Position numbers and translations under genes: made by a program. From assembly GCA_002189035.1 (NCBI GenBank), contig NEEC01000018.1, positions 1,178,001 to 1,242,000 on the forward strand: DNA of 64,000 nucleotides, read 5' to 3'. Shown in pieces: positions 1,643 to 30,092 of the stretch. Numbering within the stretch: the first letter of the stretch is position 1; each line of letters starts with the position of its first letter. The stretch comes from Utricularia gibba. Lineage: Eukaryota > Streptophyta > Magnoliopsida > Lamiales > Lentibulariaceae. The notes under the pieces are model-generated. The model did no database searches. It saw nothing but the letters and a program-made list of their open reading frames with translations, and had not been told where the DNA came from.

Positions 1643-4600
1643 TTACACAGGGGACTTGGAAAGCCATCTCTCAAGCATCGCGTAGCATTCTTCCGCCTTG
1701 TGCTCCGGAGCCGTATGCCCCGCACCCTATGGGGAAAGCCCATTCCTTTACTTGTATGTGTTGGAAAAAGAGATTTTGATTTTTGTTGTGCGTTGTCAGA
1801 TCTTGCCTTAACAGTGGCAAAGGTGAGTATAGCTTCATCGTTCTTGTAACTCATGGTGTATCTAAACATTCATAGAGGATAGACTTTAGGTTAGATGGGA
1901 TATGAGTTGAGTTTATAAACAAAGAGAGTACTTGCCCTGCAACTTGGTTTTTCACCATCCATGGCCTCCACTCCTCACTTAGACTGAGATTTAGTTGCTG
2001 AATCCAAAGCAAAGTGGATCTAAACGGCATTTCCAGGTCATGATCTCCACTGTGTATGTCACATGAGTTGCACTAACTCTCTGCACTTGAAATTCATTGA
2101 ACAAAGATAGAGACTCAACATTACCTGTAGACCAAGGCTTTGTAACCTTGGTCACTAAGGTAGCGATGTATGTTGTTGGGGTGTGACACATCTTCTATGT
2201 GGGCATTCGCTATATTGCGTTGGCGTCCTGCCCATCTACTTGAGTCCCCTGGGGTTGTTCCATCGAGCATCAGCACCAAGGGAGGGAAATAATGAAACCA
2301 GAGAGAAGCCATGATACCTTCCTAACACCAAGTGCTTCTTGAACTGTAGGATCATTGGCCCAAGCATTCATTGGGATATAATTCACTTCCTGAAAAAGAT
2401 TTCGATCACACATATAGTAGAGTTTTGGACCTCAAAGGGGTTAGTGGGCAACACTAGCACAAATCGATTACCCTGCACCAAGTTTGCTCTCCGGGCATGG
2501 AAATGAAGTTGAGAGAAGTGTCATCATCATCCAAGAAAGTGCTCCATCTTGCATTCTCTCCCAGTTTTTTGATAGTCGCTGTTGAGTGGCATTTTGGCTC
2601 CAATATATGCACAATGTTTATCTGATCTAGCAACTACAACAATGACAAGCGTATAGAGTCCAGTTTCACATTCTCAATCTGATATCTGAGCAACACCTTT
2701 TCACACCTCATACATACTAGCAACTGCTTGGACGCATTCACTGTTACTAGATTCTTTGTTAACGTAGTCTCGATTGTAGGCCGTTTTCACGTGCTGAAAA
2801 AAATGATGGAATGATTAGATATGTATCAGGATAAGAGCCAGTTTGTTAGCAAGCAAACCTCATAATGCTGGTAAGATACAATTCCCATTCCATGAGCATA
2901 TGCGATTCTCTCTTTGAATTCCTTTCCTGCTGCATTGATCCCATTGCCGGATATGTGTCCCTAAAAACGCATAAAATGTGATGAGTTGAAGGTAAACAAC
3001 TCCAACTTGCCTTAGAATCATGTACCTGCAAAGCCATGGGAGGGTAGTGTCCTTGTGCCACACCTGCATAAAATGAAAAGTGAAACTTTCATATATCCAT
3101 TCTCTCTGACATGGCAATAACTGGTCTAAAGAATGAGATGTTTCTGCTAGTTGAATGCAGAGGTCTTCCTCTTCAACTGCACTCATCCATCTAAGTAACA
3201 AATACCAACCTTTGGCAATTTCATAGGCAACCAATGCGGCAATTTTGCCTCCATAGGAATCACCCGCGATGTACAGAGGATTGCCCAGAAACTTGGGGTG
3301 ATTCAACATCCACTGCATCAAAAACAACAGATCAGCTACAGGAGGCATTGTGCATCATCTACCAATATCATCATCCTACGTTTTAAGAGCACCTTTCTTA
3401 TGAACTCGTAATTCTGTTTCATGATCACGGTGTCAGACGTGTTTCCGACTTTGGCCCTGGAGTTGTACGCGAATCCAGTTCCAGGGGGATAGTCGATGAA
3501 GATTATGCTTGCAAACTAGAAACCAAAGAAACCTTCAATTTAACAGAAGTTGATCTGATTAATGGGAGAGAAGTAGAAGACACACATTGGACTGGTTACC
3601 TTCGTCCACGCCTTCTCCCTCCTGATAAGAGATGTCTTGGAGCTTCCATAGAAACGCTCTAAATCGAACGCCAAAGGACCTGCAAAACTTTCCAACTTTT
3701 TAGTTCAATATCATCGTTGCAAAAGCAATAACGGTTTTAATTTTGGCAGAAAATAGTAAAAACAAATAGTAGGATATGAATTTATTTTGAGAAAGAAATT
3801 ATCATTTCAAGTTAGAAGTATAAATAATTATTGTAATTATAATTTTCAATTTTTATAAATTAGAATGTTCTAGAATGTTTCTGGCCACTTGGCGTCATTG
3901 ATCTCCACGATTTGTTACATTTACAAAAATGATGTTCACTGTCTTAAAGTTATCACCACTGTTTATAATTTGGTATAATTAATTCTCAATATTTCAAAAT
4001 GATGGTAAATTTATTACCATTGTTTACAAAATTAATCCTAAATAATATAGTGTTCATTATTTTGGCATAATTAATCCTCAATAGTTAAAATAATTGATAT
4101 TAATAGTCCCAATTGCTTAAAACATTTGATAAAATTAATCGCCAAATAATCATGTCTAATTTATTAAATAATGCAAACTAATTATACATGATGTTCAATA
4201 TTAATGCAAATTAAAATAATCATGTCTGATATGAGTGCTAATTATGCACGATATCCAAAATATTGAGTATTAATTTTATTTTATCATGTTTTTACTATTT
4301 TTAATATTTTGAGTAACATGCTGACTTGTTGGAATCAATGTTTTAAATTCAGAAATTTTGTCGAAATTTCAGATTTCATATTTTTTTCGATATGAAATAT
4401 TTTGAAATCTGTTCTAAGATTGGTTGGAATTCGATTAAAGCTGCTTTGGTGGTGGTTTTGGGCAAAGGTGGATATAATAAAAGAAGTTTTAAGTAAAGGT
4501 TTTAATACAGAATTGTTTGGTAGAGTGTTTTATATGAAATTGATAAATTATATGGTAATTTATGTATATAGATGAAATAACAATTGTATCCATGGTTGGG

Positions 4601-5449
4601 TGCGTAAAATAACATTCGGATAGGGGTATAATGGTAATTATTTTTAACCTTAAGGATAAATAATGTCAATACAGGAAATTACACTACTTTATATAACTAA
4701 AGCCACTTATCCACTGTGTTATCCAAAGACAATTACTGGCTATAAAGTAACTTTCAGTTTAAAGCATATTACCAAATATTTGGCTGAAGTGTCCACTCTC
4801 ATAACCGTATGTCCAATTTTCAAATTTATTCCCATATTTTTATGTGAAAAATAACTAAATTCATCTAACAAACTGTTCCTTAAAGATTGAGATGATTTTG
4901 AAAATTAACCATCTCGTTGTTACTGTATATGAAAAATAGCCATCATATGGGTAAAATTTTAATTTTAATGTGAGATAAAATAATAGGATGATTAGTTTTC
5001 AAAACTCGATTATTTGACGGAGAGTGTTGTTATTGTTGTAAACGGTAAAAGGTTGGATGGAGTAGTCCTTTTGAAGAAGGAGAACAACTCACCGAATTGA
5101 TATATCAGAGCGAAGAGACTGGAGCATCCCGGCCGCGCGGTGTGCCAGAGCAATAACGGGTCGACCCGTGGGGTCTCCCTGCGACTCCACGAAGTAGTAG
5201 AACAAGTGGGTCTCTTCCTTCTCTCCCACGCTCACGTACCTGGGTGTGCGGCAGATGAGAAGAAGCACGCAGTTGGAAGAAGAGAACAGCAGCAACTCAC
5301 CCAGTTTCCAGTTTGAAGGGGAGAGCTCCAGAGAAACCCGGAAGCGTCCTCACGATTTTCTGCGCAGAGGAAGGAGCTGCAAGTGGCAGCAGGAGCAGCA
5401 GCAGGAGGAGCAGAGGGAACATGGAGACAACCGCGACGACGAGTTTCAT
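1643..5449 (-). pseudogene. SCPL-1: serine carboxypeptidase-like acyltransferase-type gene, 14 exons, two frameshifts
   Basis: All 14 exons of the family are present in order: exon 1 at 5301-5449 (signal peptide with a leucine run), exon 2 at 5093-5239, exon 3 near 3600-3680, exon 4 near 3392-3520, exon 5 with the nucleophile motif GDSYGG near 3214-3315, exon 11 at 2125-2248, exon 12 with the catalytic Asp (SGDHD) at 1936-2049, exon 13 at 1807-1861, and exon 14 with the catalytic His (GAGHTA) at 1643-1726. Exon 2 is 147 nt instead of 146 because of an extra G in the run 5170-5173, and the oxyanion-hole motif GGPG is also changed (HTARPG even in the corrected frame). Exon 11 has a one-base deletion near 2240. 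Intron 13 begins GC (1806-1805 on the minus strand) where sister copy SCPL-3 has GT. Both frameshifts are fatal to a full-length product. Closest relative in the window is SCPL-3. Confidence 0.88.
3950..4300. repeat. Dispersed AT-rich repeat, copy 1
   Basis: Lies inside intron 2 of SCPL-1. It shares a recurring pattern (ataattaatcctcaatagt, aattgatattaatagtccc, aatcatgtctaatttatt) with 15950-16250, 31690-32060 and 43430-43870. No coding capacity or clear termini seen. Confidence 0.5.
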
Positions 5450-5799
5450 GATTTCAGTTCTCACAAGAAAGCCTTCGGATCATTCTCATTAAATAGTTGA
5501 AGTAGGATGGATGTATTGCATTGCATGCATTTGAATGAATAAATGCCCTGACGTTAGCATCGAGTTTTTTAAACGAGAACGACAAAAACTACACGTATAA
5601 TTATTTTATTTCAGAATATTATTTAGTTTTTCGATCAAATTCAATTTTTTTTCTAGATTTCGACCATTGGGTATATGGTATATATATATTGATAAAAACT
5701 GGTAGGTTTGGTTGGAGCACATGCGAGTGGGGGTGGTTGAGGCCGAAGAAGGTGCTGAAAAAAGACCGTTTGATTTCTTTTGCTGATTGCCACATATTA
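5450..5799. other. 5' flank of SCPL-1
   Basis: This region matches the flank upstream of SCPL-3 (about 16760-16860 and 17330-17510), including a shared block ending 'ggttgaggccgaagaa'. It shows that the SCPL-1/SCPL-3 duplication included upstream sequence. No independent gene seen. Confidence 0.5.
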
Positions 5800-6043
5800 G
5801 CTTCTCAGTGGAAAAGATGAGGACAGTTTAATCATTCTTATATCTCATGGTATACCTGAACATTAGCAGAGGAAAGAATTTGGGGTCGAGTTGCTATGGA
5901 TTAGGTTTACAGACAAAGAGATTGCTTGCCCTAAAACTTGGTCGTTCACAATCCATGGTCTCCTCGCCTCCATGAGACTGAGATTCAGTTGACGGATCCA
6001 AAGCAAAGTGGCTGTAAACGGCATCTTTAGGTCTTGATCTTCA
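5800..6043 (-). pseudogene. SCPL fragment f1 (exons 12-13 only)
   Basis: Exon 12 is recognisable at 5930-6043 and a degraded exon 13 at about 5800-5855. The remaining exons are missing. The Gly before the catalytic Asp is changed (GGA to GAA), and the exon 12 donor keeps the GC form (ttttagg/gcaagc). It is a leftover of another unit, between the start of SCPL-1 and the end of SCPL-2, in the same orientation. Confidence 0.75.
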
Positions 6044-6593
6044 TTGTTAATTATTAATAAATATGAATAAATATGCTATTTACTTATTAAATTCATTCTT
6101 ACTATTTACACTCTAAACATGAACTCTTTCTATGATAAAATTCCAAACATATATGAATTATTAATTCTATCAGAATTTTTAATTCTTTTAAAATCAATTT
6201 TAAATTGTTTTTTTTTTCAAACGTAACTTACAATTCACGATACAACATGAAAAATTTAGGGTTCAATAGGAGCACGCTCACTCTCCATCAAGGGATGATC
6301 AATGCCAAATATTCATAAAAAATTTGCATTTCGAATTTCCATGCTAAACCCTTAAGGCTCATTTCCTATATATTTCTTGAATTAACACAATTATATACTT
6401 TACTGTAGATTTCACATGGATCTCTAGTTTTTCATGCTCATTTAAATAAAAATTGTAGTGTTATCGCATGTTCATACAAATATGTATCATTTTCGACAAG
6501 AAATTGTTCATGTAGAGTGGATGGATACCGCTACTTTTACTTGGGTTGCTTTTTTACATTATTGCACAAGTAGTGCAGAGAAGATAAGCTCTT
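6044..6593. other. 3' flank of SCPL-2 with repeat shared with 28.3-28.9 kb
   Basis: On the minus strand this matches the sequence after SCPL fragment f4 (28315-28860) and in part that after f3 (21480-21700), including 'gagcgtgctcc...cgaaccctaaatttttcatgtt'. It is part of the duplicated unit; no gene seen. Confidence 0.5.
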
Positions 6594-9500
6594 TTATAGT
6601 GGGGTATTGGAAAGCCATCTATCCACCATTGCGTAGCATTCCTCAGGCTTGTGCTCCGATGCCGTATGCCCGGCACCCTACATGAGAGCGCATTCCTTCA
6701 CTTGAGTGTATTGGGAAAAGAAGTTTAATTTATGTTGTGGGTTGCCAAATCCTACCTTCACTGTAGCAAAGGTGAGGACAGCTTCATCGTTCTTGTAGCT
6801 CATAGTATACCTGAATATTAGCAGAGTAAAGAAATTGGGGTCGACAGGATATGGATTAAGTTTGCAACAAAAGAGAATACTTGCCCTGCAACTTGGTCGT
6901 TTACAATCCATGGCCTCCACTCCTCGATTAGACTGAGATTCAATTGTCGAATCCAAAGCAACGTGCCTCTAAATGGCATCTTTAGGTCTTGATCTCCGCT
7001 GTGTGTACGCTATGCATGTTGGCATTTTGAATTCATTGAACACAGAAATAGCCTCGACCTTACCTGTAGACCAAGGCTTTGTAACCTTGATCGCTAAGGG
7101 ATCGGTGGATGTCGTTGGGGCGCACATCTTTGATGTTCGCATTCTTGATCTTCTCATGGCATTTTGTCCATTCACTTGCAGTTCCCTAGAGTTGTTCCAT
7201 CAAATATCAGCATGAAGTGAGGTAAACAATGTGAAAGAAAGTAGATATTATACCTTCCTAACACCAAGTGCATCTTGAACTATAGGATCGTTGGCCCAAG
7301 CAATCATCGGGAGATAGTTTAGCGGCTGTAAAGAACCAAGAAATCGTCATGTGGAAAGTTGTGGACCTTGACGACGTTAGTGGACGAGACATGCACATCT
7401 TAACTACCCGACACCAAGACTTCTCTCCGGGCATGGAAATGAAGTTGAGAGAAGGGTCGCAAGCCGGTTCCATTATATGCGGCATGTTTATCCGATCGAG
7501 CAGCTACAACAATGACAAGTGTATCATGTCCAGTTTCACATTCTCAATGTGATATCTGAGCAAAATCTTTTCGCACCAATTGTATACCAGCAACTGCCTG
7601 GATGCATTCACTATTACTGGATTCTGTGTTGACATAGTCCCCATTGCAAGCTCTTCTCGCATGCTGAAAAAATGATGGAATAATTTCAGATATGTAACAG
7701 GAAGACAATCAGTTTGTTAGCAAGTAAACCTCATAATGCTCATCAGATACAAGTCCCATTCCATGAGCGTATGGGATTCTCTCGTTGAATTCCTTTTCGG
7801 GTACGTTGATCGCATTGCCGGATATATATCCCTATGAATGTATAAAATGTGATGAGTTGAAGGTATGCAACTCCAACTTGCCTTAGAATCATGTACCTGC
7901 AAAGCCATGGGAGGGTAGTGTCCTTGTGCCACACCTGCATAAAATGAAAAGTGAAACTTTCATATATCCATTCTCTCTGACATGGCAATAACTGGTCTAA
8001 AGAATGAGATGTTTCTGCTAGTTGAATGCAGAGGTCTTCCTCTTCAACTGCACTCATCCATCTAAGTAACAAATACCAACCTTTGGCAATTTCATAGGCA
8101 ACCAATGCAGCAATTTTGCCTCCATAGGAATCACCCCCGATGTACAGAGGATTGCCCATAAACTTGGGGTGATTCAACATCCACTGCATCAAAAACAACA
8201 GATCAACTATCATGCATATTCAGAGTATTCAAAAACACGCACCTCAGCAACCAAATACAAGTATACAAATAATTGAGTTGTTAAGCCTAATCTCTCCAAC
8301 TATCCTATACCTTTCTCATGAACTCGTAGTTCTCCTCCATGATCATGGTGTCAGATGAGTTGCCACCTCTGGCCGCAGACTGGTACGCGAATCCAGTTCC
8401 AGCGGGATAGTCGATGAAGATTATGCTTGCAAACTAGAAACCAGAGGAACCTCAAGTTTGAAAGGAGTTGAGGTGATTGATTAATAGGAGGGAATCAAAA
8501 GTTTGGATTGCTTTCATTACCTTCGTCCATGCCTTGTCTCTTGTGACAAGAGATATCTCAGAGCTCCCATAATAACGCTCTAAATCAAAGGCCAAGGGAC
8601 CTGCAAAACCTTCCAACTTCTCAGCATAGGTTGATAATACGTATTACATATGTTTGATAGAAAATATTTATAAGAAATTTATATGTTATATTACTAAAAC
8701 ATAGTCATATTTAAATATACATAATTATTTATTGTGTATTTGAAAATAAAAATTATTTAATAGATAGATATATATGTTTTACTATTTTATAAACTCTTTT
8801 TCCATAAAAAAGAACGTAAAATTGTAATAATTATATGCTAAAAATGAACAATATCCTAAATGATAACATGAGTCATGACATTGATTGGGCAGCACGCGCT
8901 CCAGGGTTGTTGGTCCGTCTCATTCCAAAGTCTTTCAATTAGACATATCATTCATTTTCTTTGTACCAAAGAATGGATCATGTTTATCTTTCATACTCTA
9001 TTCGTCAATCTTATCAACATGATCAAGATTTAGAAATTTAAAATCCTGATTTTTTGTAGATTATTTAAAATGATGTGAATGTTAAAAATACTGATTGATA
9101 TATAAAAATTTGAAGATGAAAAATAAGTTGATTTCGGAGAAATCATATTGAAATCAATACATCTCAAAGAATTTAAATCACAAGTATAATGTGAAATTAA
9201 AAATGGATCATGTGTTGTATGGATTATTAAAAAAACCTAATTCGATCTGTTTTCATACTTTGGTGAGCCCCGGACAGAGATCCAAATGGAGTAGTCCTTG
9301 GGAAGAAGGAGAACAACTCACCGATTTCATATAAGAGAGCGAAGAGACTGGAGCATCCCGGCCCGCCGCTGTGCCAAAGCAATAGCGGGTCGACCCGTGG
9401 GTTTCCCTGCGACTCCACGAAGTAGTAGAACAAGTGGGTCTCTTCCTTCTCTCCCACGCTCACGTACCTGGGAGTGCGGCAGATGAGAAGAAGCACGCAG

Positions 9501-9677
9501 TTGGAAGAAGAGAACAGCAGCAGCTCACCCGGTTTCCAGTTTGAAGGGGAGAGCTCCAGAGAAACCCGGAAGCGTCCTCACGATTTTCTGCGAAGAGGAG
9601 GAAGCTGTAAATGGCAGCAGCAGCAGGAGGAGGAGGAGCAGAGGGAAGAAGGGCACGACCGCGACGGCGAGTTTCAT
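6594..9677 (-). CDS. SCPL-2: serine carboxypeptidase-like protein, acyltransferase-type, 456 aa, 14 exons
   Basis: Exons: 9529-9677, 9322-9467, 8521-8600, 8311-8433, 8081-8183, 7897-7934, 7730-7831, 7577-7663, 7408-7503, 7254-7325, 7064-7185, 6885-6998, 6756-6810, 6594-6677; they sum to 457 codons with no internal stop. The protein starts with a secretory signal peptide (residues about 1-29, leucine run), then [11 protein letters not shown] (oxyanion region), GDSYGG (nucleophile Ser), SGDQD (Asp) and GAGHTA (His), the catalytic triad of peptidase family S10. The G-D-S-Y form instead of G-E-S-Y is typical of SCPL acyltransferases, which use glucose esters in the vacuole; the substrate cannot be read from sequence. 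Exon 9 is 96 nt against 159-162 in the paralogs: an in-frame loss of about 21 residues after the Cys of the HIMEPAC motif. Intron 12 is GC-AG. Likely vacuolar or secreted. Confidence 0.85.
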
Positions 9678-9839
9678 GCTTTCAGATCTGGCACGAAAGC
9701 CTTTGGTTCATCATTAAATTATTGTAGTAGGATGGATGCACTCTATTTGAATGAATGATCGTAGTCATGGATGATGTGGGTTTTGGGTGTTCCGTTCTTC
9801 TTGTAAGTATACACAGTGTTTATAGACAAAAAAGTGACC

Positions 9840-9962: not shown

Positions 9963-10019
9963 CTTAACATGACCGGCAATTATTTAAAACAATAAAATTA
10001 ATTGGGTTTTGGGTGTCCC

Positions 10020-10440
10020 ACCTACACGTTTTTTGACAGGTACCGACGGACAGGCTGGCACGACCGGCAATTCATTTAAAGCAATAACTTACTTAAATTA
10101 GCCTAACAACACATGTAAAAGCAAAGATGCTTGGTTGATGTTCTATGCACTCTATATGAATAATTTTTATGCAAAACAAACAAAAAAAATGTTATCAAAT
10201 CTTAAATATGAGATTATGCAAAGTTATAACTCATTAGCATGACAAGAAAATAAAGTTACAAAATTTATTTCAATGAGCATGAAAAACTAGAGAACCATGA
10301 GAAAATCTATTGAAAAGTACATAACTGTATTAACTCAAGAAATCCACAATAAACTTTAAATTTAGGGTAGAAAATAAAAAAAAAATGCAAAATTTTAGTG
10401 GGATGGCTACAGCGAATAGATCTGATTTGATCATGCTTTT
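10020..10440. other. Duplicated spacer matching the SCPL-4 3' flank
   Basis: From about 10115 this closely matches 27515-27930 downstream of SCPL-4 (shared: 'gataatttttatgcaaaa', 'aatgttatca', 'ttgatcatgctttt'). The start (ctacacgttttttgac...) also matches 19023-19085. It links an SCPL 3' end to a CYSTM copy, as at 27.5-28.0 kb. Confidence 0.5.
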
Positions 10441-10767
10441 TGAAAAGTGTTTTTTTGTCAACTTGGTTCAATGTATTCTTAGATTTAATTATAAGGCGTA
10501 TACATGTGCCTCACGTGCGTTTCGTTGCCAGTTCGAAAAGGTTGCAAAAAGATTTGTATGATTCAGTCCAATCAACCTCGGTGAGCCGGTGGCCGTTCCT
10601 CCGCCTCATGAATATGCGGCTTTCAACTTTCTTAATTGGGTTTCAGTGATTACCCCTTAATTTTCTTGATGCCATCGGAGGAGTTGTTCCACAAGGACGC
10701 CGCCTACGCCCTGCCGGCGTTTCCGCCGACAGGCTATCGTTAGGAGTACCCTTCCCAGGGATATCAT

Positions 10768-11053
10768 CCGCGGTAGTTATTTTGGAAAATATATACTGTC
10801 ATCCCACTGTATTAGAAAAATACATTGTGTTGGAAAAATATACATAACATGTGAAAAAAAAAAAAATAGATTTAGTGTGTGAAAGATAAAGTTATAATAT
10901 ATACTTTAATAAAAGACACTTATCTCCCGGGCTTATTTTGAAAAATACACTCTGTAAAATTATTATGTGAAAAAACTATCATCCTATGTGTGATGTTTTG
11001 TGTTGAGTGTGTGTCAGAGAAATGGAGGGTTGGTAGATTTATAAAACAACTAT
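10768..11053. repeat. AT-rich insertion within CYSTM pseudogene 1 exon 2
   Basis: About 286 bp absent from the homologous positions of the other CYSTM copies. It contains internal near-repeats (tattagaaaaatacattgtg / ttggaaaaatatacataaca). I cannot define termini or a family. Confidence 0.45.
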
Positions 11054-11129
11054 ACCCCTCCGCCACAGCATAAATAAACCGCGAGTGACCACGTCCTTGT
11101 AAGGATGGTATGGTTACCTACGCACTAAA

Positions 11130-11333
11130 TGGGAAACAATAAGCAAAATACATATTTTATAAAAGTTTATTAGCAAAATACTCAATGTTATGAAAACGTT
11201 TGCTAAATACATGTTTGCAGAATACATGCTTTTTAATGACAATTGTGAACAACAATTGTGTAATGTACGGTAAACTAGTAACAAACTTCATAAAACTAGA
11301 GGTAAGTGTATTAGAAAATTAATAAAATATATA

Positions 11334-11369
<36 letters not shown>

Positions 11370-11711
11370 TTATTTATTTACAAAATAAGTAAAGTTGAAA
11401 TTATTTGAAAATTTTTTTAAAAAGTCATTTAGCAAAATCTTTGCTACACAATCGATTGGTGGGTTTGCATCAATAAGATCAATCAAGTCGGCCAGCGTTG
11501 TTTTAATTGAAGATACAAAAGGAATCCATTACTCTCTTCTCTGACTTTTTCAAGACAGTAATTAGGGTTGAATAGCATGGGTGCATATCTGCATAGGTGC
11601 ATAGGTGTATAGGTGTATAGTTGCAGAAAACATGTATTTTGTTTATGTTTTATTGAATTTATGTATTTTGCTAATTCATATTTTCTACATATGTATTTTA
11701 CTAACGGAACC
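11130..11711. mobile_element. MITE-like foldback element
   Basis: A 582-bp insertion in intron 2 of CYSTM pseudogene 1. Candidate 7-bp target duplications CACTAAA lie at 11123-11129 and 11712-11718; the empty form (cactaaaccgtcggatcc) is seen near 22874. The first and last 80-90 bp are imperfect inverted repeats built of subrepeats such as 'agcaaaatacat' and 'aaatacatgtttgcag' (right arm read in reverse: taaaatacat, agcaaaatacat, aaatacatgttttctgca). No transposase. A (TA)n run lies at about 11337-11364. A hAT-like or Mutator-like origin is possible but not shown. Confidence 0.65.
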
Positions 11712-12114
11712 CACTAAACGGTCGGATCCCAAAACACACGGTCCAGTAGATTTGACCTCATTTTCTCAAGATGGATTGATTACTTTGTTCATGTTCTTAC
11801 AGTTTGGCTGCACTGTGCTGCTATTCCCTCCATGTCGTGTATGATTCAAGTATTATAACAAATAATTCTGTATCAATATTTGAAATTGAAATAAACAAAT
11901 ATATAATAAATTAAAAATAACTATTAATTGATTGAAATTAATTTTTTCTAAAATGATTCATGTTTTTTATATACTTAATGTATATTCTTGTAATCCATAA
12001 AATCATTAAAAGACTAGTTAAAGGTATCCTGCAATGTTTGCTTGACCTAAATGAAATGGAGATAAGTCTAACCTTTGACATCATGAATAATGTTAAATAA
12101 ATGCACATTATGAA

Positions 12115-12262
12115 ATTATTGACAATTTAAAATTAATATCAGTTGCAAGGTTTTGAACAGTAATGTGATTATGACCAACTGAAAGTTATTAAAGATAATG
12201 TGTTTAAAAAGAATAATTGAGACCAAAAATTTTGGCCAGTTTTTTGTCGATATCCACTCTCT
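12115..12262 (+). promoter_or_regulatory. Conserved block upstream of SCPL fragment f2
   Basis: Homologous to 23278-23425 upstream of SCPL-4 and, inverted, to 9840-9962 upstream of SCPL-2. Here the gene it served is truncated. Confidence 0.35.
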
Positions 12263-12356
12263 AGACTTAGAATATTAAAGGGAGGCCCAGAACCCATTCA
12301 TTCAAATGCAGTCCATCCATCCTTTTTCACTTATTGTTCGTGTTAGATCTGAAAGC

Positions 12357-12708
12357 ATGAAACTCGCCGTCGCGCGGTCGTGCCCATGTTCTCTCTGCTC
12401 CTCCTCCTGCAGCTGCTGCTATTTGCAGCTTCCTCCTCTTCGCAGAAAATCGTGAGGACGCTTCCGGGTTTCCCTGGAGCTCTCCCCTTCAAACTAGAAA
12501 CTGGGTGAGTTGCTGTTCTCTTCTTCCAACTACGCACTTCTTCTCATCTGCAAGACTCCCAGGTACGTGAGCGTGGAAGAGAAGGAAGAGACCCATTTGT
12601 TCTACTACTTCGTGGAGTCGCAGGGAGACCCACGGGTCGACCCGTTATTGCTCTGGCACACCGGCGGGCCGGGATGCTCCAGTCTCTTCGCTCTGATATA
12701 TGAATTCG
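12357..12708 (+). pseudogene. SCPL fragment f2 (exons 1-2)
   Basis: Exon 1 has the original ATG at 12357, but two extra bases near 12375 (gtcgcgcggtcg against gtcgcggtcg in SCPL-2) shift the frame within the signal peptide. Exon 2 (about 12563-12708) is well preserved and includes [11 protein letters not shown]. Homology to the SCPL-4 intron 2 start stops near 12800, and no further exons follow. It is divergent (head to head) with SCPL-2, with CYSTM pseudogene 1 between them. Confidence 0.85.
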
Positions 12709-12799
12709 GTGAGTTGTTCTCCTTCTTCCCAAGGACTAACTACCCCATTTGGATCTCTGCCCGAAAAAAAAAAGTCTGACATCACCGACATAAAAACAG

Positions 12800-13384: not shown

Positions 13385-13428
13385 CGATGGCGAATCATTT
13401 GGCTGAAGAAATCTAAGAAGAAGAAACC

Positions 13429-15532: not shown

Positions 15533-15552
15533 CCCCCCCCCCCCCCCGGGGG
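15533..15552. repeat. C15G5 homopolymer tract in intron 3 of SCPL-3
   Basis: Fifteen C followed by five G, inside about 60 bp that SCPL-1 lacks at the same place. It could be a real insertion or a sequencing or assembly artefact. Confidence 0.6.
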
Positions 15553-15949: not shown

Positions 15950-16250
15950 TTATACCCACTGTTTATAGTTTAGTATAATTAATTCTCAATATTTCAAAAT
16001 AACGGTAAAATTTGTTATCATTAATTAAAAAATTAATCCTAAATAATATAGTAGTATTCACTTTTTGGCATAATTAATCCTCAATAGTTAAAATAATTGA
16101 TATTAGTAGTCCCAATTGCTTAAAATATTTGATTAAATTAACCACCAACTAATCATGTCTAATTTATTGAATAATGAAAATTAATTATGCATTGTGTTCA
16201 AAGTAAAAAAAAAAATTAAAATAAAAAAATTGGAGAATTAATTTTAACAA
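15950..16250. repeat. Dispersed AT-rich repeat, copy 2
   Basis: Inside intron 2 of SCPL-3, collinear with the copy at 3950-4300 in SCPL-1, so it predates their duplication. Confidence 0.5.
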
Positions 16251-16730
16251 TGAAGATAAAATAGGTAATTTATATTAAAAAGTGATGGCTAATTTTATCA
16301 AAATATTAAAAATTAGGGATTTTTAATGCAATTTCCTTTCCTACCATAATCAACTTGTAAGTTCAAAAACAACTCACCGATTTCATACAAGAGAGCGAAG
16401 AGACTGGAGCATCCCGGCCCGCCGTTGTGCCAGAGCAATACCGGGTCGACCCGTGGGTCTCCCTGCGACTCCACGAAGTAGTAGAACAAATGGGTCTCTT
16501 CCTTCTCTCCCACGCTCACGTACCTGGGAGTGCGGCAGATGAGAAGAAGCACGCAGTCGGAAGAAGAGAAGAGCAACTCACCCAGTTTCCAGTTTGAAGG
16601 GGAGAGCTCCAGAGAAACCCGGAAGCGTCCTCACGATTTTCTGCGCAGAGGAAGGAGCTGCAAGTGGCAGCAGGAGCAGCAGCAGGAGGAGCAGAGGGAA
16701 CATGGAGACAACCGCGACGACGAGTTTCGT

Positions 16731-19700: not shown

Positions 19701-20615
19701 TAAAAAGTGAAATTCACAACACCATGAATCTACTCTAGTTTCAAATCAAATAAAATTACATTATAGTATTTAGAAAAATGATTATTTGTATACTCTATCT
19801 CATACATTATAAAAAATTTATATGATGGATAGTTATTTTTATCACACAATATTTTACACATCGCCAAATTTCTAATTCATCCATATTACACCAAGCCCGA
19901 TAAAAAGTGACAAAAAATTGTGCTCTTAATTATTGTTTTTATCACATTATCTTTAATCATTTTCAGTTAGGCATAATCGTCTTAAAATACTATATTTTGA
20001 ATCCACAGACTTTTGTTGATGTAACATGATTCAATATACGAGCGCAGTTTATGTGTTTCCGAATCCATTTGGTTGGACAGGGCAATGAAGAGGCGAATGG
20101 CGATGATTAAACTGTGCCATATATCAATGGATAAAATAATTTATTGTATACATTATATCAATGGGCCAATCCCAACCTCCCATGCAAGTAGGCGAGGGAG
20201 CGCCGGTGATGTACAGACTGGGCTGCATGGATAGAAAAAAACGCAGTAATTTACTTAAATACATGTATCAGAAAATTATCTTGTCAAGATACGTGTTGTT
20301 TTTTTGATTTCATCATAATATATGCGATTCAATTTTTTTCTTTTAAAAATACCTGTCATTTCGAAATTAATGTTTTAATACGCATTTTTATTTTTATTGA
20401 AATGCATACTACTATATATTAAGACAAATTAGTTTATTTCAAAGTTATTTTAATCAATAAATTATTTTGATGGATTACTCTTAATGACAACAAGAATAAT
20501 AATTAAAAAATAGAAAACAAAACATTGTAATATTAAACATAAATAAAGCACAGGGGCATGATCAGAGCCTTCCAATTTCACATTTCTTGCCTTCATAATA
20601 TGCCTGGAATTATTG
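16731..20615. other. AT-rich intergenic region with relics
   Basis: 3.9 kb without a gene. It contains the SCPL-3 upstream flank shared with SCPL-1 (to about 17510) and a 26-base direct repeat of 'aaaactgtcatctatgatat' type at about 18565 and 18820. A TRIM LTR fragment lies at about 18737-18815. A block at 19023-19085 matches 10022-10085, and an orphan SCPL promoter-like block lies at 19915-19990. The stretch 18900-19010 is more GC-rich but has no sustained ORF. Confidence 0.55.
18737..18815 (-). repeat. TRIM-family LTR fragment
   Basis: Starts 'tgttgaaattcag', the reverse complement of the LTR end at 1070-1607, and continues with 'aaaaaatgtgaatcacattt'. Partial and diverged. Confidence 0.45.
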
Positions 20616-21120
20616 CACCGATCCCTTAGCGATCAAGGTTACAAAGCCTTGGTCTACAGGTAAGGTCGAGGCTATTTCTGTGTTCAATGAATTCAAAATG
20701 CCAACATGCATAGCGTACACACAGCGGAGATCAAGACCTGCTGATGCCTTTTAGAGGCACGTTGCTTTGGATTCGACAACTGAATCTCAGTGTAATCGAG
20801 GAGTGGAGGCCATGGATAGTGAACGAACAAGTTGCAGGGCAAGTATTCTCTTCAGTTGCAAAGTTATCCATCGACCCTGTTTCTATCCTCTGCTAATGTT
20901 CAGGTATACTATGAGATACAAGAACGATGAAGCTGTCCTCACCTTTGCTACTGTGAAGGTAGGATTTGGCAACCCACTACATAAATCGAACTTCTTTTTC
21001 CAACACACTCAAGCCAATGAATGGGCTCTCATTTAGGGTGCTGGTCATACAGCATGCGAGTACAAGCCTGAGGAATGCTACGCGATGGTTGATAGATGGC
21101 TTTCCAATACCCCACTGTAA
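20616..21120 (+). pseudogene. SCPL fragment f3 (part of exon 11 to exon 14)
   Basis: Starts inside exon 11 (cgatcccttagcgatcaagg), then exon 12 from 20725 with SGDQD, the GC donor (gttgcagg/gcaagt), exon 13, and exon 14 ending at the TAA at 21118-21120, with GAGHTA kept. Reading frames of these exons are open, but the first ten exons are missing, so it cannot make an S10 enzyme. Confidence 0.85.
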
Positions 21121-22315
21121 ACAGTTTATCTTCTCTGCACTCCTTGTGCAATCATGTGAAAAAGCAACCCAAGTAAAAGTGGTGGTACCCTCCACTCTGG
21201 TTGAAAATGATACCCATTTGATATGGTTGAAAATCGAATTAATTCTAATTAAAGATTATCATATTGTTGAAATTAAAAATCCAATGAGTTGAAGTAATGT
21301 GTATGAAAATCTAGTGCATAATAAACATAAATCATATTAAAAAATTTCAATACAATCGATTATTAATAAGTTATAATTTTTTATATATATTTAATTATTT
21401 CACTTTAAATTCTTGATATGAAATTATTTATTTTAATGCATATAAGTTATTTGCATGAACATACGATAACACTACGAATTTTATTTAAATGAGCATGAAA
21501 CGCTAGAGAACTATTAGAAAATCTAAAGTATATAATTGTATTAATTCAAGAAATCTATAAAAAATGAGGCTTAAGGTTTAACATGGAAATACGAAATGCG
21601 AAATTTTTTGGAATATTGAGCATTGATCATCCCTTGATGGAGAGCGAGCGTGCTCCTGTCGAACCCTAAATTTTTCATGTTGTGTGGTGAATTGTAGGCT
21701 CTCAATCAAGGGTAAAATCAGATATTCAGATTTTTTGATTAATTTTGAAATTATTGAATTTCTTAAATCTTGAGTTTAGTAATTAAATAATAGATTATTT
21801 AAAAAATGATATTATTCAATTTTTATCATTCTAAACATATAGTTATATCATATCATATATATATATATATATATATTATTTTATTTTATTAAATTTATAA
21901 TACAATTTAACACTATACTACATATTTACATAATTTTAAAACTGATTCTATTTCACATAATTTAATTCACAACTTCCAATTACATAACGTGTCCTTTAGC
22001 TACGGGTTGAATCGAATGTAACAGATTATAGGTTCGGATTGTGGAAACCTAAACAATTATGACATTTTCCATAACAATCAATGTTAAATGTGATATTTTT
22101 TTATTATTTTCGTGAAAAAAAAAAGAGAATGTTTAATTGGAACATGAAAAATAAATCAGCCCAAAATGTGTGAATTGGAAAAAATCTTCTTAAACATGAG
22201 ACAAGAAAATATTTTTTTTAAATATAAAGAGAATGAGTCAATTAGCTTGTAATAGAGATACATGTTCCACCACCCGGGTTTCTTTGTCAGTTGTTGAAGA
22301 TTACAGAAGATTTCT
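21121..22315. other. Spacer between SCPL f3 and CYSTM pseudogene 2
   Basis: Contains a diverged TRIM-family LTR at about 21266-21436, a stretch shared with the 3' flanks of SCPL-2 and f4 (21480-21700), a (TA)n run near 21856, and a block (21995-22260) shared with 29245-29520 immediately upstream of the CYSTM gene. No independent gene. Confidence 0.5.
21266..21436 (-). repeat. TRIM-family solo LTR, diverged
   Basis: Begins 'tgttgaaattaaaaatccaa' and continues with the order of motifs found in the reverse complement of the LTRs at 1070-1607 (ataaacataaatcatatt, aatcgattattaataagtt). Identified by eye; no clean target duplication seen. Confidence 0.45.
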
Positions 22316-23010
22316 ACGAGTTTTTACAATCAACCTCCGGTGGCCGTCCCGCGCCACAAGGCAAATGCGGGTGTTTATTTTTCTTCATTGGGTTTCAATG
22401 ATTAGCCCTAATTTTGTTGATGCCATTCACAGAGTATCCGGCGGAGGGGTTCCCCAAGGACGCCCCCTACGCCCAACCGGCGTAGCCGCAGCCATGGTAT
22501 CCGCACGGCTACCCTCCCCAGGGATATCCGCCGCCGTATTTGTTGGAATAAAATAAGGTTTTTGGAGAAGGGGGTGGCAATACCACATTACTAGTTGAAA
22601 ATCATTTCAACTAATTTGTATGTAAGTCCAACCCAATAACTTTGATGAGTTTGAGAGAGAATTGAGATTCACGTGCATATAGGATTTTAATTTATTGAAT
22701 CGGGTTGGGTTTTCGAAGGGTACTGAAACCCAGAAATGGTTACGCGCAGGGGTGCAAACCCACCCCAAAATGCTTTCGCGTGTGTGCTGCGTTCCTTGGA
22801 AGGATGGTACGGTTACCGACAGCAAAATCTGTTTGCTTGCCTAGAATCACTCGCCATCTCAGATGTGTCTACGCACTAAACCGTCGGATCCGAAAACACA
22901 CGGTCCAGTAGATTTGACCTAATTTTCTCAAGATGGGTTGATTACTTTGTTCGTGGTCCAACAGTTTGGCTGCACTGTACTGCTATTCCCTTCATGCCCG
23001 GTACGTGTGT
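22316..23010 (+). pseudogene. CYSTM pseudogene 2
   Basis: The start is ACG (22316-22318) where the gene at 29575 has ATG. Exon 2 has a TAG within the Pro-Tyr-rich region (gcgtagccg, about 22483) and is cut at about 22538 by foreign sequence. Homology resumes at about 22795 (ttggaaggatggtacggtta). Exon 3 follows 'caacag' at 22965 with LAAL but a lost cysteine run. It sits about 0.55 kb upstream of SCPL-4. Confidence 0.75.
22538..22795. repeat. Insertion in CYSTM pseudogene 2
   Basis: About 258 bp beginning 'tgttggaataaaataagg', LTR-like at its start, replacing about 75 bp of exon 2. I cannot find a matching CA end or target duplication, so its class is unknown. Confidence 0.4.
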
Positions 23011-23277
23011 ATCATTCAAGTATTACATGAAGCAATTCAATATCAGGATTTGAAATTGAAATTGCAAAGAATTATTAATTTATTATATCTAATTTTCTTT
23101 AAAGTAATTCACATTTTTTTATATACTTGAAGTTCATGTATATTCGTCTAACCTATAACATCCTTAAGGGACTAGTTAAAGGCATCCTACAATGTTTGCT
23201 TGACCTAAATGAAATGAAGCTAAGTCTAACCTTTGACATCATGAATAATGTTAAATAAATACACATTATGAAATTAT

Positions 23278-23425
23278 TGATAATTTATTATTAATATCAT
23301 TTGCAAGGTTTTCAACAGTAATGTGATTATGACCAACTGAAAGTGATTAAAGATAATGTATTCAAAAAGAATAATTGAAACCACAAATTTTGGTCACTTT
23401 TCTGTCGATATACACTGTATAGACT
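23278..23425 (+). promoter_or_regulatory. Conserved block upstream of SCPL-4
   Basis: Lies about 130-280 bp before the ATG and is shared with 12115-12262 and, inverted, with 9840-9962. Contains 'atgaccaactgaaagtgatt'. I do not see a convincing TATA box. Confidence 0.4.
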
Positions 23426-23557
23426 TGTAAGATTAAAGGGACACCCAAAATGCACATCATCCATCACTATGATCATTCATTCAAATGGAGTGCATCCATC
23501 CTACTTCAATTATTTAACGAAGATGATCCATGACGTTTCCTTGTTAGATCTGAAAGC

Positions 23558-26500
23558 ATGAAACTCGCCGTCGCCGTCGTGCCCATGTTCCCTCTGCTCC
23601 TCCTCCTGCTGCTGCTGCTATTTGCAGCTCCTTCCTCTTCGCAGAAAATCGTGAGGACGCTTCCGGGTTTCTCTGGAGCTCTCCCCTTCAAACTGGAAAC
23701 TGGGTGAGTTGCTGCTGTTCTCTTCTTCCAACTGCGTGCTTCTTCTCATCTGCAACACTCCCAGGTACGTGAGCGTGGGGGAGAAGGAAGAGACCCACTT
23801 GTTCTACTACTTCGTGGAGTCGCAGGGAAACCCACGGGTCGACCCGTTATTGCTCTGGCACAGCGGCGGGCCGGGATGCTCCAGTCTCTTCGCTCTTCTA
23901 TATGAATTCGGTGAGCTCTTCTCCTTCTTCCAGAGGACTAACTACCCAATTTGGATCTCTGTGCGAAAAAAAATCTGACCTCACCGACAGAGCGAACAGG
24001 TTTTTTTAATAATCCATACAGCACATCACGTACAATAAAACATTATCTATTTTTTAATCTCATATTAGACTTCTGATTTAAATTCTTTGAGATATATTGA
24101 TTTTAATAAACTTTCTCCGAAATCAACTTGTTTTTTATGTTCATTTTTATATATCTATCGATATTTTGAACATTCACGGCATTTTAAACAATCTACAAAA
24201 AATCAAGATTTTAAATTTCTAGATCTTGATCATATTGATAAGATTGACGAATAGATCATGAAAGATGAACATGATCCCATTCTTTGGTACAAAGACAATG
24301 AAATTACAGTAAATAAGTAAGGTAATCATTCATATATTAAAATATAGATTTATAATATGACTAATTGAGAGACATTCGAATCCGACGGCAAACAACCCTG
24401 GAGTGCCGCCCAATCAATGGCGGATGTTCATCCTAAAGTTGGGGTCTTTTTAGTAAAATAAATGTGCAGATTGTTTGTCTTTTTCTAATTTCTTGTGAGG
24501 AAAAGAAACTTGTTTTTTCTAACATGAGAAAATTGTTTTATTGATCTTACAAAACATGTTTTCTTTTTCAAAATAAATTCACATCCTATAATTTGTTTTT
24601 ACTATTTTCAGAATAAATTGGTTTTTAAAGTTTTTCAAGTTTAATCCTTTACTTCAACAATGATATTAAATTTAAAAACATGAAAAGTTTTTTTATATTG
24701 AATAATATATTTTAATTATAAGTATTTTCTCTCAAATACGTGATAAAATAATATCATATTTTGTTTTTCAAATTAATTCCAACCACATTTAATACCTATG
24801 GTGACAAGTTGGAAGGCGTTGCAGGTCCCTTGGCCTTTGATTTAAAGCGTTATTATGCGAGCTCTGAGGTATCTCTTATCACCAGAGACAAAACATGGAC
24901 AAAGGTAAGGAAAGCAATCCAATGGGCATCTTTTGATTCCCTCCCTGTAATCAACCAGCTCAACTCCTTTCATATTGGAGGTTTCTCTGGTTTCTAGTTT
25001 GCAAGCATAATCTTCATCGACTATCCCCCTGGAACTGGATTCGCGTACCAGTCCGCGGCGGCCAGAGGTGGCAACACATCCGACACCATGGTCATGGAGC
25101 AGAATTACGAGTTCATGAGAAAGGTAGTTTTAAGGCATAGGATAGTTGGAGATATTAGGGTTTCACATTTTAGAATGCTATGAAGATAGCAAAATGCCTG
25201 TTTAGTTGATCTGCTCTTATCATGCAGTGGTTGTCGAGTCACCCCAACTTCGTGGGCAATCCTTTGTACATCGGGGGTGATTCCTATGGAGGTAAAATTG
25301 CTGCGTTGGTTGCTCATGCAATTGCCAAAGGTCGGTATATGTTAATTGAATTGATCCATTTTGGAAATAACAATTCGATAGATAACGTATGCTTGAAGCT
25401 ATAGTACATAATTAACGTAAATTATATTCGAAAAAATTAGGTACAATTAATTACTAATTCATAATATGTTATATATTTAATTATATAATTTTAATTTTTT
25501 AATATAATATTATTTGTTAGTATACTGTACTACAGTCAAACTGGTTTTGATTCAATTAACACTTATTATTTTTATTTATGATTGTAAATATTGTTTTTAT
25601 CATATGTTCATCTAATTTATGTCAATTAACACACATGCATCTTATTGTTTTTTTTCAATCAAAACCTAGACAAGAGACCTATCTTAACTACCCAAGGCAT
25701 ACTATAAGCCAAATACTTAGATATCATATTCAAATTAAGGATCCAATTGGTTGAGGAAGGACATGTGTGAAATTCTAATACATAAAAAACCATGGATCAT
25801 ATTTTAAAAGATTGGACTTAATCAATTACTAGCAACCCACAATCTCTTATATATTTAATCATATCATTTTAATCTTCAGATTTGGAATTGTTTGCTTAAT
25901 AATGAATATATAAGTGTCATTGAATAGTAAGACCTATGCAGTCAACAAGCACAGACATCTTATTTTTTTGTAATAGTTATGGTGTATTAGAGAGAACATA
26001 TGTGAAAGTTGCACTACAGTCTTTATGCTTACATAAGCAGCTTGCAGGTGTGACACAAGGACACCATCCTCGCATGGCATTGAAGGTACGCGAGCCCAAT
26101 GCAATTTACACCTGTTTATCTTTGACACATCAAGCTTTATGCGTTTACAGGGATACATCTCCGGCAATGCAATCAACGCCGGTGGGAAGGAATTCAACGA
26201 GAGATTCCGAAGCGCTCATGCAATGGGACTTATATCTGACGAGCATTATGAGGTCTGTTAGCTAACAAACGGATCATCCTCCTGTTACATATTTGAACCC
26301 ACTCCACCTCTTTCAGCATGCAAAAGCAGCATGCAATGGGAACTACTTCGACACAGAAACTAGCAACGGTGATTGCATCGAGGCAGTTGACAGGATGGGT
26401 AAGGTGAGGAAGGTATTATTCAGATATGTGGTTGAGATTGTGGAACTGGACTCCATACATTTGTCACTGTTCTAGCTGCTTGATCGGGTAAATATGGAGC

Positions 26501-27468
26501 ATATAATGGAACCGAGATGCCTCTCACCAGTGGCTATCAAAAAGCCGAGAGAGAATGCAGGATGGGGCGCTTTTTTGGCAGATGACTCTTCTTTCAACTT
26601 CATTACCATGCCTGGAGAGAAGACTTGGTGGTGTAGGGTAACCAATATGCACAAGTGTTTTCCAGTAATCCCTTCAGGGTTCAGAACTCTGCTACATACA
26701 TACATAACTGATGATTTTTTGGTTATTTGCAGGATCTAACCTATCTCCTAATGATTGATTGGGCCAATGATCCTATAGTTCAAGATGCACTCGGTGTTAG
26801 AAAAGTAAGTATCTTCTCTCTAATTTGCTTATTTCCCTCATTCGATGCTGATGTTTGATGGAACAACTCCAGGGAACTACAAGTGAATGGCTAAGATGCC
26901 ATCGCGAAATGATGTATACACACACTGTAGATGTGCAATGCCCCAATGACATCCACCGCTCCCTTAATGATCAAGGTTACAAAGCCTTGGTCTATAGGTA
27001 AGGTCGAGGCCATTTATGTGTGCAATGAATACAAAATACTAACTTGCATAGCATGCATACAGTGGAGATCAAGACCTGCAGATGCCTTTCAGAGGCACAT
27101 TGCTTTGGATTCGACAACTGAATCTCAGTCTAATCGAGGAGTGGAGGCCATGGATTGTGAAGGACCAAGTTGCAGGGCAAGTATTCTCTTTAGTTGCAAA
27201 CTTAATCCATATCCCATCAACCCCAATTTCTATCATCTGTTAATTTACAGGTATACCATGAGATACAAGAACAATGAAGCTGTCCTCACCTTCGCTACTG
27301 TGAAGGTAGGATTTGGAAACCTACAACATAAATGGAGCAGTCTTTTTCCAATACACTCAAGTGAAGGAATGTGGTCTCATGTAGGGTGCTGGCCATACGG
27401 CTTGGGAGCACAAGCCTGAGGAATGCTACACGATGGTGAATAGATGGCTTTCCAATACCCCACTCTAA
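23558..27468 (+). CDS. SCPL-4: serine carboxypeptidase-like protein, acyltransferase-type, 479 aa, 14 exons
   Basis: Exons: 23558-23703, 23765-23910, 24825-24904, 24998-25123, 25228-25330, 26048-26085, 26151-26252, 26317-26403, 26476-26637, 26733-26804, 26873-26997, 27063-27176, 27251-27305, 27385-27468; 480 codons including the stop, all phases consistent. Signal peptide at residues about 1-29, [11 protein letters not shown] (oxyanion), GDSYGG (nucleophile Ser), SGDQD (Asp), GAGHTA (His). Length fits family S10. Carboxypeptidases have W-L-N-G-G and G-E-S-Y; here these are W-H-S-G-G and G-D-S-Y, so acyl transfer (glucose-ester dependent, vacuolar, as in the SCPL acyltransferase clade) is likelier than peptide hydrolysis. 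The substrate is unknown. Intron 8 is only 72 nt, intron 12 is GC-AG, and intron 5 holds TRIM LTR relics. Exon 9 has one extra Trp codon (TWWCR) relative to its paralogs. Confidence 0.9.
25385..25520 (-). repeat. TRIM-family LTR relic in SCPL-4 intron 5
   Basis: Carries the LTR motif order in reverse orientation (acgtaaattatat, caattaattactaattcata, atatatttaattat). Diverged. Confidence 0.4.
25728..25905 (-). repeat. TRIM-family LTR relic, second copy in SCPL-4 intron 5
   Basis: Matches the reverse complement of the LTR at 1070-1244: 'aaaccatggatcatatttta', 'atcaattactagcaaccc', 'tcatttta'. Better preserved than the copy at 25385. Confidence 0.5.
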
Positions 27469-28011
27469 AGAGCTTATCTTCTCTGCACTACTTGTACAGT
27501 TGAAGAAACAACCCATGTAAAAGTAAAGATTCTTGATCTATATCCAGTGCACTCTATATGGATAATTTTTATGCAAAATAAACAAAAAAATGTTATCATA
27601 TGTTTAATATGGGATTATGTAAAATTTAATAACATGAATACAGGATGAAATTTTAACGTGGTTTAATCATTACATACATTTGATATGCTTGAAACTCGAA
27701 TTAATTCCAATTATCGATTATCGTATAAATTATTTGCATGACAAGACAATAACATTATAAAATTTATTTCAATAAGCATGAAAAACTCGAGAACCATTAG
27801 AAAATCTAATGAAAAGTTCGTAATTGTATTATATCAAGAAATCCAGAATACACTTTATCTTTAGGGTAGAAATAAAAAAGACAACATTTTAGTGGGCTGG
27901 CTACTGGGAATAGGTCTGATTTGATCATGCTTTTCGGAAAAGTGTTTCTTTGTCCATCCCTTCACCCACCGCGTTTCGTTGTCGGTTCGAAAAAGGTTAC
28001 ACAAGATTTCT
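27469..28011. other. Spacer SCPL-4 to CYSTM pseudogene 3
   Basis: Matches 10115-10440. No gene. It documents the SCPL 3' end to CYSTM order of the duplicated unit. Confidence 0.5.
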
Positions 28012-28180
28012 ATGAGTCACTACAATGAACCTCGGTGGCCGTTCCTCCGCCTCATGGAATGCGTGGCTGTCTATTTTCTTAATTGGGTTTCAGTGATTAC
28101 CCCTAATCTTCTTGATGCCATCGGAGGAGGGGTTCCACTAGGACGCTGCCGACGCCCAGCCGGCGTTTCCGCCGCCAGGT
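28012..28180 (+). pseudogene. CYSTM pseudogene 3, 5' part only
   Basis: ATG at 28012 gives MSHYNEP, as expected for a CYSTM start, then a one-base deletion (cctcgg for cctccgg) shifts the frame. Intron 1 and the beginning of exon 2 follow, with homology ending at about 28180, where the sequence switches directly into SCPL intron 13. Confidence 0.75.
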
Positions 28181-28314
28181 TATCTTTCTTTTTCCAATAC
28201 ATTGAAGTGAAGGAATGTGGTCTCATGTAGGGTGCTGGGCATACGGCATGGGAGCACAAGCCTGAGGAATGCTACGCAATGGTGGATAGATGGCTTTCCA
28301 ATACCCCACTATAA
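28181..28314 (+). pseudogene. SCPL fragment f4 (end of intron 13 and exon 14)
   Basis: Exon 14 is intact at 28231-28314 ([20 protein letters not shown], then stop TAA), preceded by 50 bp of intron 13. All other exons are absent. The junction with CYSTM pseudogene 3 marks an unequal or illegitimate recombination point. Confidence 0.85.
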
Positions 28315-29574
28315 AAGAGCTTATCTTCTCTGCACTACTTGTGCAATAATGTAAAAAAGCAACCCAAGTAAAAGTAGCGGTATCCATCCACTCTACATGA
28401 AAAATTTCTTGTTGAAAATGAGCATGAACATATGATAACACTACAAATTTTATTTAAATGAGCATGCAAAACTAGAGAACCATGTGAAAATCTATAGTAA
28501 AGTATATTGTTGTATTAGTTCAAGAAATCTATAGAAAATGAGCCTTAAGGATTTAGCATGGAAATACAAAATGCTAAATTTTTTTGAATATCGAGCATTG
28601 ATCATCCCTTGATGGAGAGTGAGCGTGCTCCCGTCGAACCCTAAATTTTTCATGTTATATGGTGAATTGTAAGTTACGTTTGGAAAAAATAATTTTGAAA
28701 TTATTTTAAAAGTATTAAAATTTTGATAGAATAAAAATTAATATGTGTTTGGAATTATTTTTTTATTATAGAAAGAATTCATGTTTAGAGTGTAAAAAGT
28801 GAGAATTGATCTAATAAGTAAATGACATATTTATTCATACTTATATTTTATAAATTTACAACTTTGAAAAATATGTTTCGTATACTATTTATATTTAAAA
28901 ACTATTATATGATTTTTGAATTATATTTTAAATAATTATTTTAATCTAAAAATATTAATATTAAAAATATTTTTAATATTAAAATAACTAAATTATTTAT
29001 AATAGTTTCAATTACAATTATTTATAAAAATGTTTATGATTATAATTTCCATCTTAGAATCAATTCCCAAAGCTCAATTTTTATAGAGAAGCCACCATAT
29101 AATACTTCTTATAGAATTGAATTGATTTCAAAAAATGAATTCTTGTAAAATAAAATTTGATATACACTTGGAAGATGAAAATAATTTTATCAGAATATAA
29201 TTAATTCTAAAGGAAGTTGCTCGCGGGCGCTGCCTGAGAATTAAATACTTTAGCTACCGGTTGAATCGAATTTAACAGATTATAGGTTCGGATTGTGGCA
29301 CCCTAAAAAATTATGACACTTTACATAACAATCAATGTTAATGTGATTTATTTTTTATTATTTCGTGAAAAAAAAAGAATGTTTAATGGGAACATGAAAA
29401 ATAAATCAGCCTAAAATGTGTGAATTGGATAATATTTTCTTAAACTAGAGACAAAAATTTTTATTTTTTGTTAAATACAAAGAGAATGAGTCAATTAGCT
29501 TGTAATATAGATACATGTCCATTGTCCACCACCCGGGTTTCGTTGTCAGTTGTTGAAGATTACAGAAGATTTCT
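28315..29574. other. Spacer upstream of the CYSTM gene
   Basis: The first 550 bp match the 3' flanks of SCPL-2 and f3. The last 330 bp match 21995-22310 upstream of CYSTM pseudogene 2 and should hold the CYSTM promoter; I see no clear TATA box near the start. Confidence 0.5.
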
Positions 29575-30092
29575 ATGAGTTTTTACAATCTACCTCCGGT
29601 GGCCGCTCCTCCGCCACAAGGCAAATGCGGCTGTTTATTTTCTTCATTGGGTTTCAATGATTAGCCCTAATTTTGTTGATGCCATTCACAGGCTATCCGG
29701 CGGAGGGGTTCCCCAAGGACGCCGCCCCCTACGCCCAGCCGGCGTACCCGCAGCCAGGGTATCCGCAGGGCTACCCTCCCCAGGGATATCCGCCGCCGTA
29801 TCCACCGATGCCGTACCCCTACCCCCGCCGCCTTATGCCCCTCCGCCACAGCAGCAACAGACCGCGAGTGGCAGCGGTTGCTTGGAAGGATGGTACGGTT
29901 ACCGCACGACGCCTTTCTTTTTTTCACGAATCGCAGATCTGAGATGTGTCTGTGTACTAAACCGGCGGATCCCAAAACACACAGTGCAGTAGATTTGCCC
30001 TAATTTTCTCAAGATGGATTTGATTGATTTGTTCATGGTTTTGCAGTTTGGCTGCGCTGTGCTGCTGCTGCCTCCTCGACGCCTGCTTCTAG
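29575..30092 (+). CDS. Cysteine-rich transmembrane (CYSTM) protein, with apparent one-base deletion
   Basis: Exons 29575-29620, 29692-29892 and 30047-30092. The product starts MSFYNLPPVAAPPP, then has a Tyr-Pro-Pro/Gln-Gly repeat region, and should end with the CYSTM tail G-C-L-E-G-C-L-A-A-L followed by CCCC-LLDACF, the membrane-associated module of small plant stress-related proteins. The exons sum to 293 nt, one short of a multiple of three. The reading frame changes inside the run of five C at 29822-29826, and one more C would restore agreement between the Pro-rich part and the Cys-rich tail. This is either a sequencing error in a homopolymer or a recent frameshift; as written the product lacks the CYSTM tail. 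Intron 1 has a GC donor (cacaag/gcaaat), also kept in pseudogene 2. Confidence 0.7.

Follow-up and report, generated by a model that had tools for sequence, protein, structure and literature searches.

A partly inverted SCPL array in Utricularia gibba, with a decaying CYSTM neighbour very probably copied as a passenger

The repeat at the Rhg1 locus of soybean is 31 kb long. Three unrelated genes act at this locus (PMC6637870). Tandem clusters of clade I SCPL genes are known from angiosperms, among them the FPT cluster, which is positionally conserved and holds 4 to 12 paralogs (PMC11449225). In this work, we describe a locus of Utricularia gibba that can be likened to both. As in the clade I clusters, tandem SCPL paralogs are found in varying copy number, but the array is partly inverted, largely decayed and carries an unrelated gene, CYSTM, and the likeness to the FPT cluster concerns the tandem layout. 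As in Rhg1, unrelated neighbours have been copied together as a single repeat unit; however, the co-duplicated genes of Rhg1 are intact and act together, whereas the CYSTM partner is broken here. Our literature searches found no report of this SCPL-CYSTM pair.

The window, that is, the whole stretch of 64,000 nucleotides that was analysed, corresponds to positions 1178001-1242000 of contig NEEC01000018.1 (C409 in the genome searches), a contig of 2.5 Mb in an assembly of ~100.1 Mb and 516 contigs. Self-comparison of the window gave dense direct and inverted matches over 1.6-30.1 kb, and the SCPL array occupies ~28 kb. The copies are partly inverted, as had been read from the letters, with SCPL A, B and C on the minus strand and D on the plus strand (Table 1). 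All the SCPL copies were modelled with a purpose-written spliced protein-to-DNA aligner, and CYSTM was located genome-wide by DNA and motif searches, since the Pfam CYSTM search misses the window copy, whose exons are split. The comparisons were made within one genome, and proof of the ancestral order would take related genomes.

An earlier sequence-only reading had counted four full-length SCPL loci and four SCPL fragments. The fragments were all recovered, and so were the four loci, but only D (one of the four) is undamaged. Four functional SCPL genes were considered and rejected, as A has two frameshifts, C lacks the initial ATG and B carries a deletion of 22 residues. The motif altered in A is that of the oxyanion hole, and in C a later Met is present ahead of a hydrophobic leader. 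A stop and a frameshift in the model of gene B were discarded as an artefact of the aligner around the in-frame deletion. SCPL D matches the Pfam S10 family (PF00450) with 356 bits over profile positions 1-420 of 420, and wheat carboxypeptidase II and sorghum hydroxynitrile lyase are among its relatives of known structure. The motifs GDSYGG, SGDQD and GAGHTA, which are taken to hold the catalytic Ser-Asp-His triad of the family, can be read in D and B, while C has SGDHD in place of SGDQD. The nucleophile motif is GDSY rather than GESY, which agrees with SCPL acyltransferases, and D may be an acyltransferase rather than a peptidase. Intron 12 is of the GC-AG type, with the donor GG|GCAAGT, a feature common to A, B, C, D and fragment F2 (at 27176 in D and at 20.8 kb in F2).

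Table 1. Positions of SCPL, CYSTM and spacer copies in the window
Feature	Positions	Strand	Remarks
SCPL A	1645..5449	-	14 exons; reading frame shifted near 5175 and near 2242; ARPGCSS in place of GGPGCSS; pseudogene
SCPL fragment F3, exon 12 region	5764..6054	-	spliced model
Spacer 1, beta type, downstream of SCPL B	6057..6532	-	matches 28360-28844 at 89%
SCPL B	6596..9677	-	ATG-to-stop frame open; exon 9 shortened in frame by 22 aa; D-like and A-like segments alternate
Spacer 1, alpha type, U1 unit	10105..10480	+	DNA alignment
CYSTM relic U1	10490..11831	+	remains of exons 1-2 at 10.5-10.78 kb and of exon 3 at 11.71-11.83 kb
Spacer 2 of U1	11832..12340	+	matches 22985-23545 at 85%
SCPL fragment, exons 1-2 only	12357..12725	+	frameshift near 12369
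SCPL C	13599..16727	-	14 exons, neither frameshift nor stop; first ATG changed to ACG
SCPL fragment F2, end of exon 11 to exon 14	20577..21117	+	spliced model
Spacer 1, beta type, after F2	21190..21700	+	block-wise comparison
CYSTM relic U2	22250..22995	+	start ACG; in-frame stop in exon 2; insertion 22545-22777; exon 3 ruined
Spacer 2 upstream of SCPL D	22985..23545	+	contains dispersed repeat 23059-23168
SCPL D	23558..27466	+	intact; 14 exons; about 478 aa; GC-AG intron 12
Spacer 1, alpha type, after D	27507..27960	+	self-comparison
CYSTM relic after D, 5' part only	27963..28186	+	cut at 28186
SCPL fragment F4	28187..28403	+	exon 14 with its 3' flank; coding part 28231-28311
Spacer 1, beta type, after F4	28360..28844	+	block-wise comparison
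CYSTM copy E	29574..30092	+	best preserved; exons 1-3 recognisable; exon 2 frameshift near 29815-29830; GC donor of exon 1

Within the array, one order recurs: an SCPL 3' end is followed by spacer 1, CYSTM, spacer 2 and then SCPL exons 1-2. This order had been proposed for 9.6-12.7, 22.3-23.6 and 27.4-28.2 kb; the recurrence stands, but the third occurrence is truncated inside CYSTM at ~28186 and fused there to another SCPL 3' end (F4), and a fourth unit had not been listed (28.19-30.09 kb), composed of F4, its own spacer 1 and CYSTM copy E. The order is complete through SCPL exon 1 in two units only, U1 (10.1-12.8 kb) and U2 (20.6-24.0 kb). Of the SCPL 3' region, U1 keeps only the sequence immediately past the stop, and the 3' end that had been placed at ~9.6 kb was a misreading, the sequence at 9.3-9.7 kb being the first two exons of gene B, which lies on the minus strand. 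Beyond the end of CYSTM E, self-comparison gave no match to any other unit, and this copy is consistent with being the right-hand edge of the array. In both U1 and U2, the CYSTM end passes straight into spacer 2, a junction that may be the joint of the duplication.

Two pairs of spacers had been named as the test of this pattern, and both align far above background. The first pair (10.1-10.4 and 27.5-27.9 kb) shows 83.6% identity between 10105-10230 and 27507-27633 (E 1e-30) and 77% between 10225-10741 and 27724-28187 (E 1e-114) in the self-comparison. The second pair (12.0-12.3 and 23.1-23.5 kb) aligns inside a single collinear stretch, 11709-12817 against 22871-24008 (83%, E 0), which comprises CYSTM exon 3, spacer 2 and SCPL exons 1-2. 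The best spacer scores are 258 and 456 bits; among 100 unrelated segments taken from the window, the maximum is 25.6 bits.

That SCPL and CYSTM were duplicated together, as had been suggested, is upheld by these collinear blocks across gene boundaries and by the way in which the spacer 1 and CYSTM copies split. For spacer 1, the four comparable copies separate into those of U1 and D, on the one hand, and those of F2 and F4, on the other (1000 of 1000 bootstraps; informative sites 37:1:2). The 5' half of CYSTM gives the same two groups, U1 with D and F2 with F4/E (1000 of 1000 bootstraps; 21:0:0), and hence the SCPL flank was copied with CYSTM in a single block. For the 5' half of CYSTM in U1 and U2, we used block-wise comparison instead of global alignment; there, U1 is alpha-like and U2 beta-like. 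The 3' half of the U2 copy groups instead with U1 (K2P 0.10 versus 0.22), so that this CYSTM is a chimera of a beta 5' half, a U1-like 3' half and unrelated sequence. Since the two halves are discordant, at least one later recombination took place inside CYSTM, and with such chimeric blocks the history is more complex than a simple series of duplications.

None of the four CYSTM copies is intact as assembled. Three are relics, as the sequence-only reading had it, but the one that it took for a gene (29.57-30.09 kb, copy E) is frameshifted in exon 2 and carries GC in place of a GT donor. Copy E is related to the CYSTM genes (PF12734): the end of exon 2 together with exon 3 scores 49.6 bits against this profile (cut-off 25.2), and its exon structure and its C-terminal cysteine-rich TM module match those of an intact paralog on contig C412, which has a GT donor and is free of frameshifts. 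Most of the reading frame of copy E survives, with no intact frame joining exons 1-3; the frameshift, located in a C-rich stretch, could be an assembly error. Two lesions are common to several copies: those at 10.5 and 28.0 kb have both lost 12 bp, and with them the splice acceptor of exon 2, and those at 11.7 and 22.9 kb have the same rewritten end of exon 3, replacing the CCCC-LDACF coding sequence. Because other CYSTM genes of the genome, the intact C412 paralog among them, are undamaged at these sites, the lesions are derived, and because they are common to copies, CYSTM was already damaged when the blocks were copied.

A paralogous segment, C98:1870747-1896788, contains an SCPL pair of the same subfamily (synonymous divergence of 0.11 between its members) followed by a C2H2 and an NPH3-like gene, arranged and oriented as at C409, with protein identities to C409 of 70% (C2H2) and 79% (NPH3-like). 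By eye, genes resembling those for a Y-family DNA polymerase, a DUF936 protein and a vacuolar sorting receptor lie between SCPL and C2H2 at C98; they are missing at C409. DNA and protein searches found no CYSTM between or near the SCPL, C2H2 and NPH3-like genes of C98. None was found in a second SCPL cluster, on C2, and the further CYSTM genes that were found, on C375, C412, C480 and C505, have no SCPL match less than 0.5 Mb away. At C98:1865185, upstream of the SCPL pair, tblastn pointed to a possible CYSTM remnant (E 0.005); this candidate was rejected, as it has neither adjoining CYSTM exons nor a DNA match to the CYSTM copies of the window.

Synonymous divergence among the array copies is ~0.13-0.44, against ~1.1-1.4 to C98, values that are approximate given the pseudogene A and the deletion in B; since the copies differ less from each other than from C98, the array expanded once the C98 segment had split off. 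Over exons 1-2 of A, B, C, D and the 12.36-12.73 kb fragment, synonymous divergence is about one third of that in the remaining gene. Between A/C and B/D it amounts to 0.13-0.17 in exons 1-2 and 0.45-0.55 in exons 3-14, and the contrast is weaker against C98 (0.80 versus 1.30). The low divergence of exons 1-2 suggests that the 5' end was homogenised. Gene B also changes its nearest relative along its length, being D-like at 9980-8440, A-like at 8307-7692 and D-like again from about 7458, in the stretch where its 22-residue deletion sits. Over 8057-7842, B is 98-100% identical to A, in a region where A and C differ by 17-26%. The simplest reading of these alignments is that gene conversion or unequal exchange may have made B a mosaic. 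Two direct copies of a 177-bp sequence, probably a small mobile element, break the homology between A and C within 1069-1608, and it has relatives at 50320-50490 and 25726-25889.

We propose that the locus is very probably the product of segmental tandem duplication together with gene conversion and decay, in which CYSTM was a passenger. Ancestrally, a small CYSTM gene would have adjoined an SCPL gene, an adjacency that we infer, and the segment from the SCPL upstream region to the CYSTM end would have been duplicated head to tail, possibly by unequal crossing-over. The CYSTM end of one copy would thereby have come to abut the sequence upstream of the following SCPL. Block lineages alpha and beta would then have formed and been recopied, some parts being inverted and trimmed, and the SCPL copies would have traded sequence through gene conversion. 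CYSTM would have been carried along, decaying in part before the later rounds of copying, while at least one SCPL enzyme gene (D) is still intact. The two features looked for under such a history, collinear homology across the gene boundaries and a concordant history of adjacent blocks, are both found.

A co-regulated two-gene cassette, in which SCPL and CYSTM were kept and copied together since they work together, could also explain why the pair was copied more than once along with its intergenic sequence, and the largely preserved reading frame of CYSTM E would agree with it. Such a cassette, however, would have both genes intact and together at independent loci, and there is no intact CYSTM here as assembled, some of the lesions are older than later copying, the C98 sister segment and the C2 cluster have SCPL genes and no CYSTM, and the CYSTM genes found elsewhere stand more than 0.5 Mb from any SCPL match. 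We therefore consider the cassette highly improbable; the functional link offered as an inference in the sequence-only reading is not borne out, and the two families would lack a joint function. We give equally scant credence to a small, lineage-specific functional cassette made of a translated CYSTM E, its frameshift being an assembly error, co-expressed with SCPL D.

The order could instead stem mainly from mobile elements inserted beside the SCPL copies, the spacers matching by independent insertion. Indeed, ~110 bp of spacer 2 (23059-23168) belong to a repeat that is dispersed over the genome, with some 25 hits elsewhere, and because of this they are weak evidence alone; 23210-23442 is a short element that recurs only around the locus, at 9.8 kb, 12052-12283, 19900-20020 and C409:1171524-1171768 (6.5 kb before the window). 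These repeats weaken those portions of spacer 2 as evidence and leave the collinear block unaffected. The unbroken match that links CYSTM exon 3, spacer 2 and SCPL exons 1-2, with collinear single-copy flanks, and the near absence of spacer 1 matches outside the cluster in the genome search make independent insertion distinctly unlikely. An assembly artefact, with haplotype copies or misjoined reads producing the repeats and inversions, would fit the clustering of all the copies within 28 kb. It is barely credible, however, for copies that differ by 5-25% with independent indels, far past allelic error, and that sit on a 2.5-Mb contig.

What is the meaning of this array? The repeated two-gene pattern is real, but it is very probably an ordinary tandem duplication and not a working gene pair. 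At a single locus, the array shows plainly how tandem copies multiply, mix and decay, covering the copying of blocks of more than one gene, conversion between enzyme copies and the loss of a hitchhiking neighbour. It also gives a caution, in that recurrent gene adjacency within a tandem array is not evidence for joint function.
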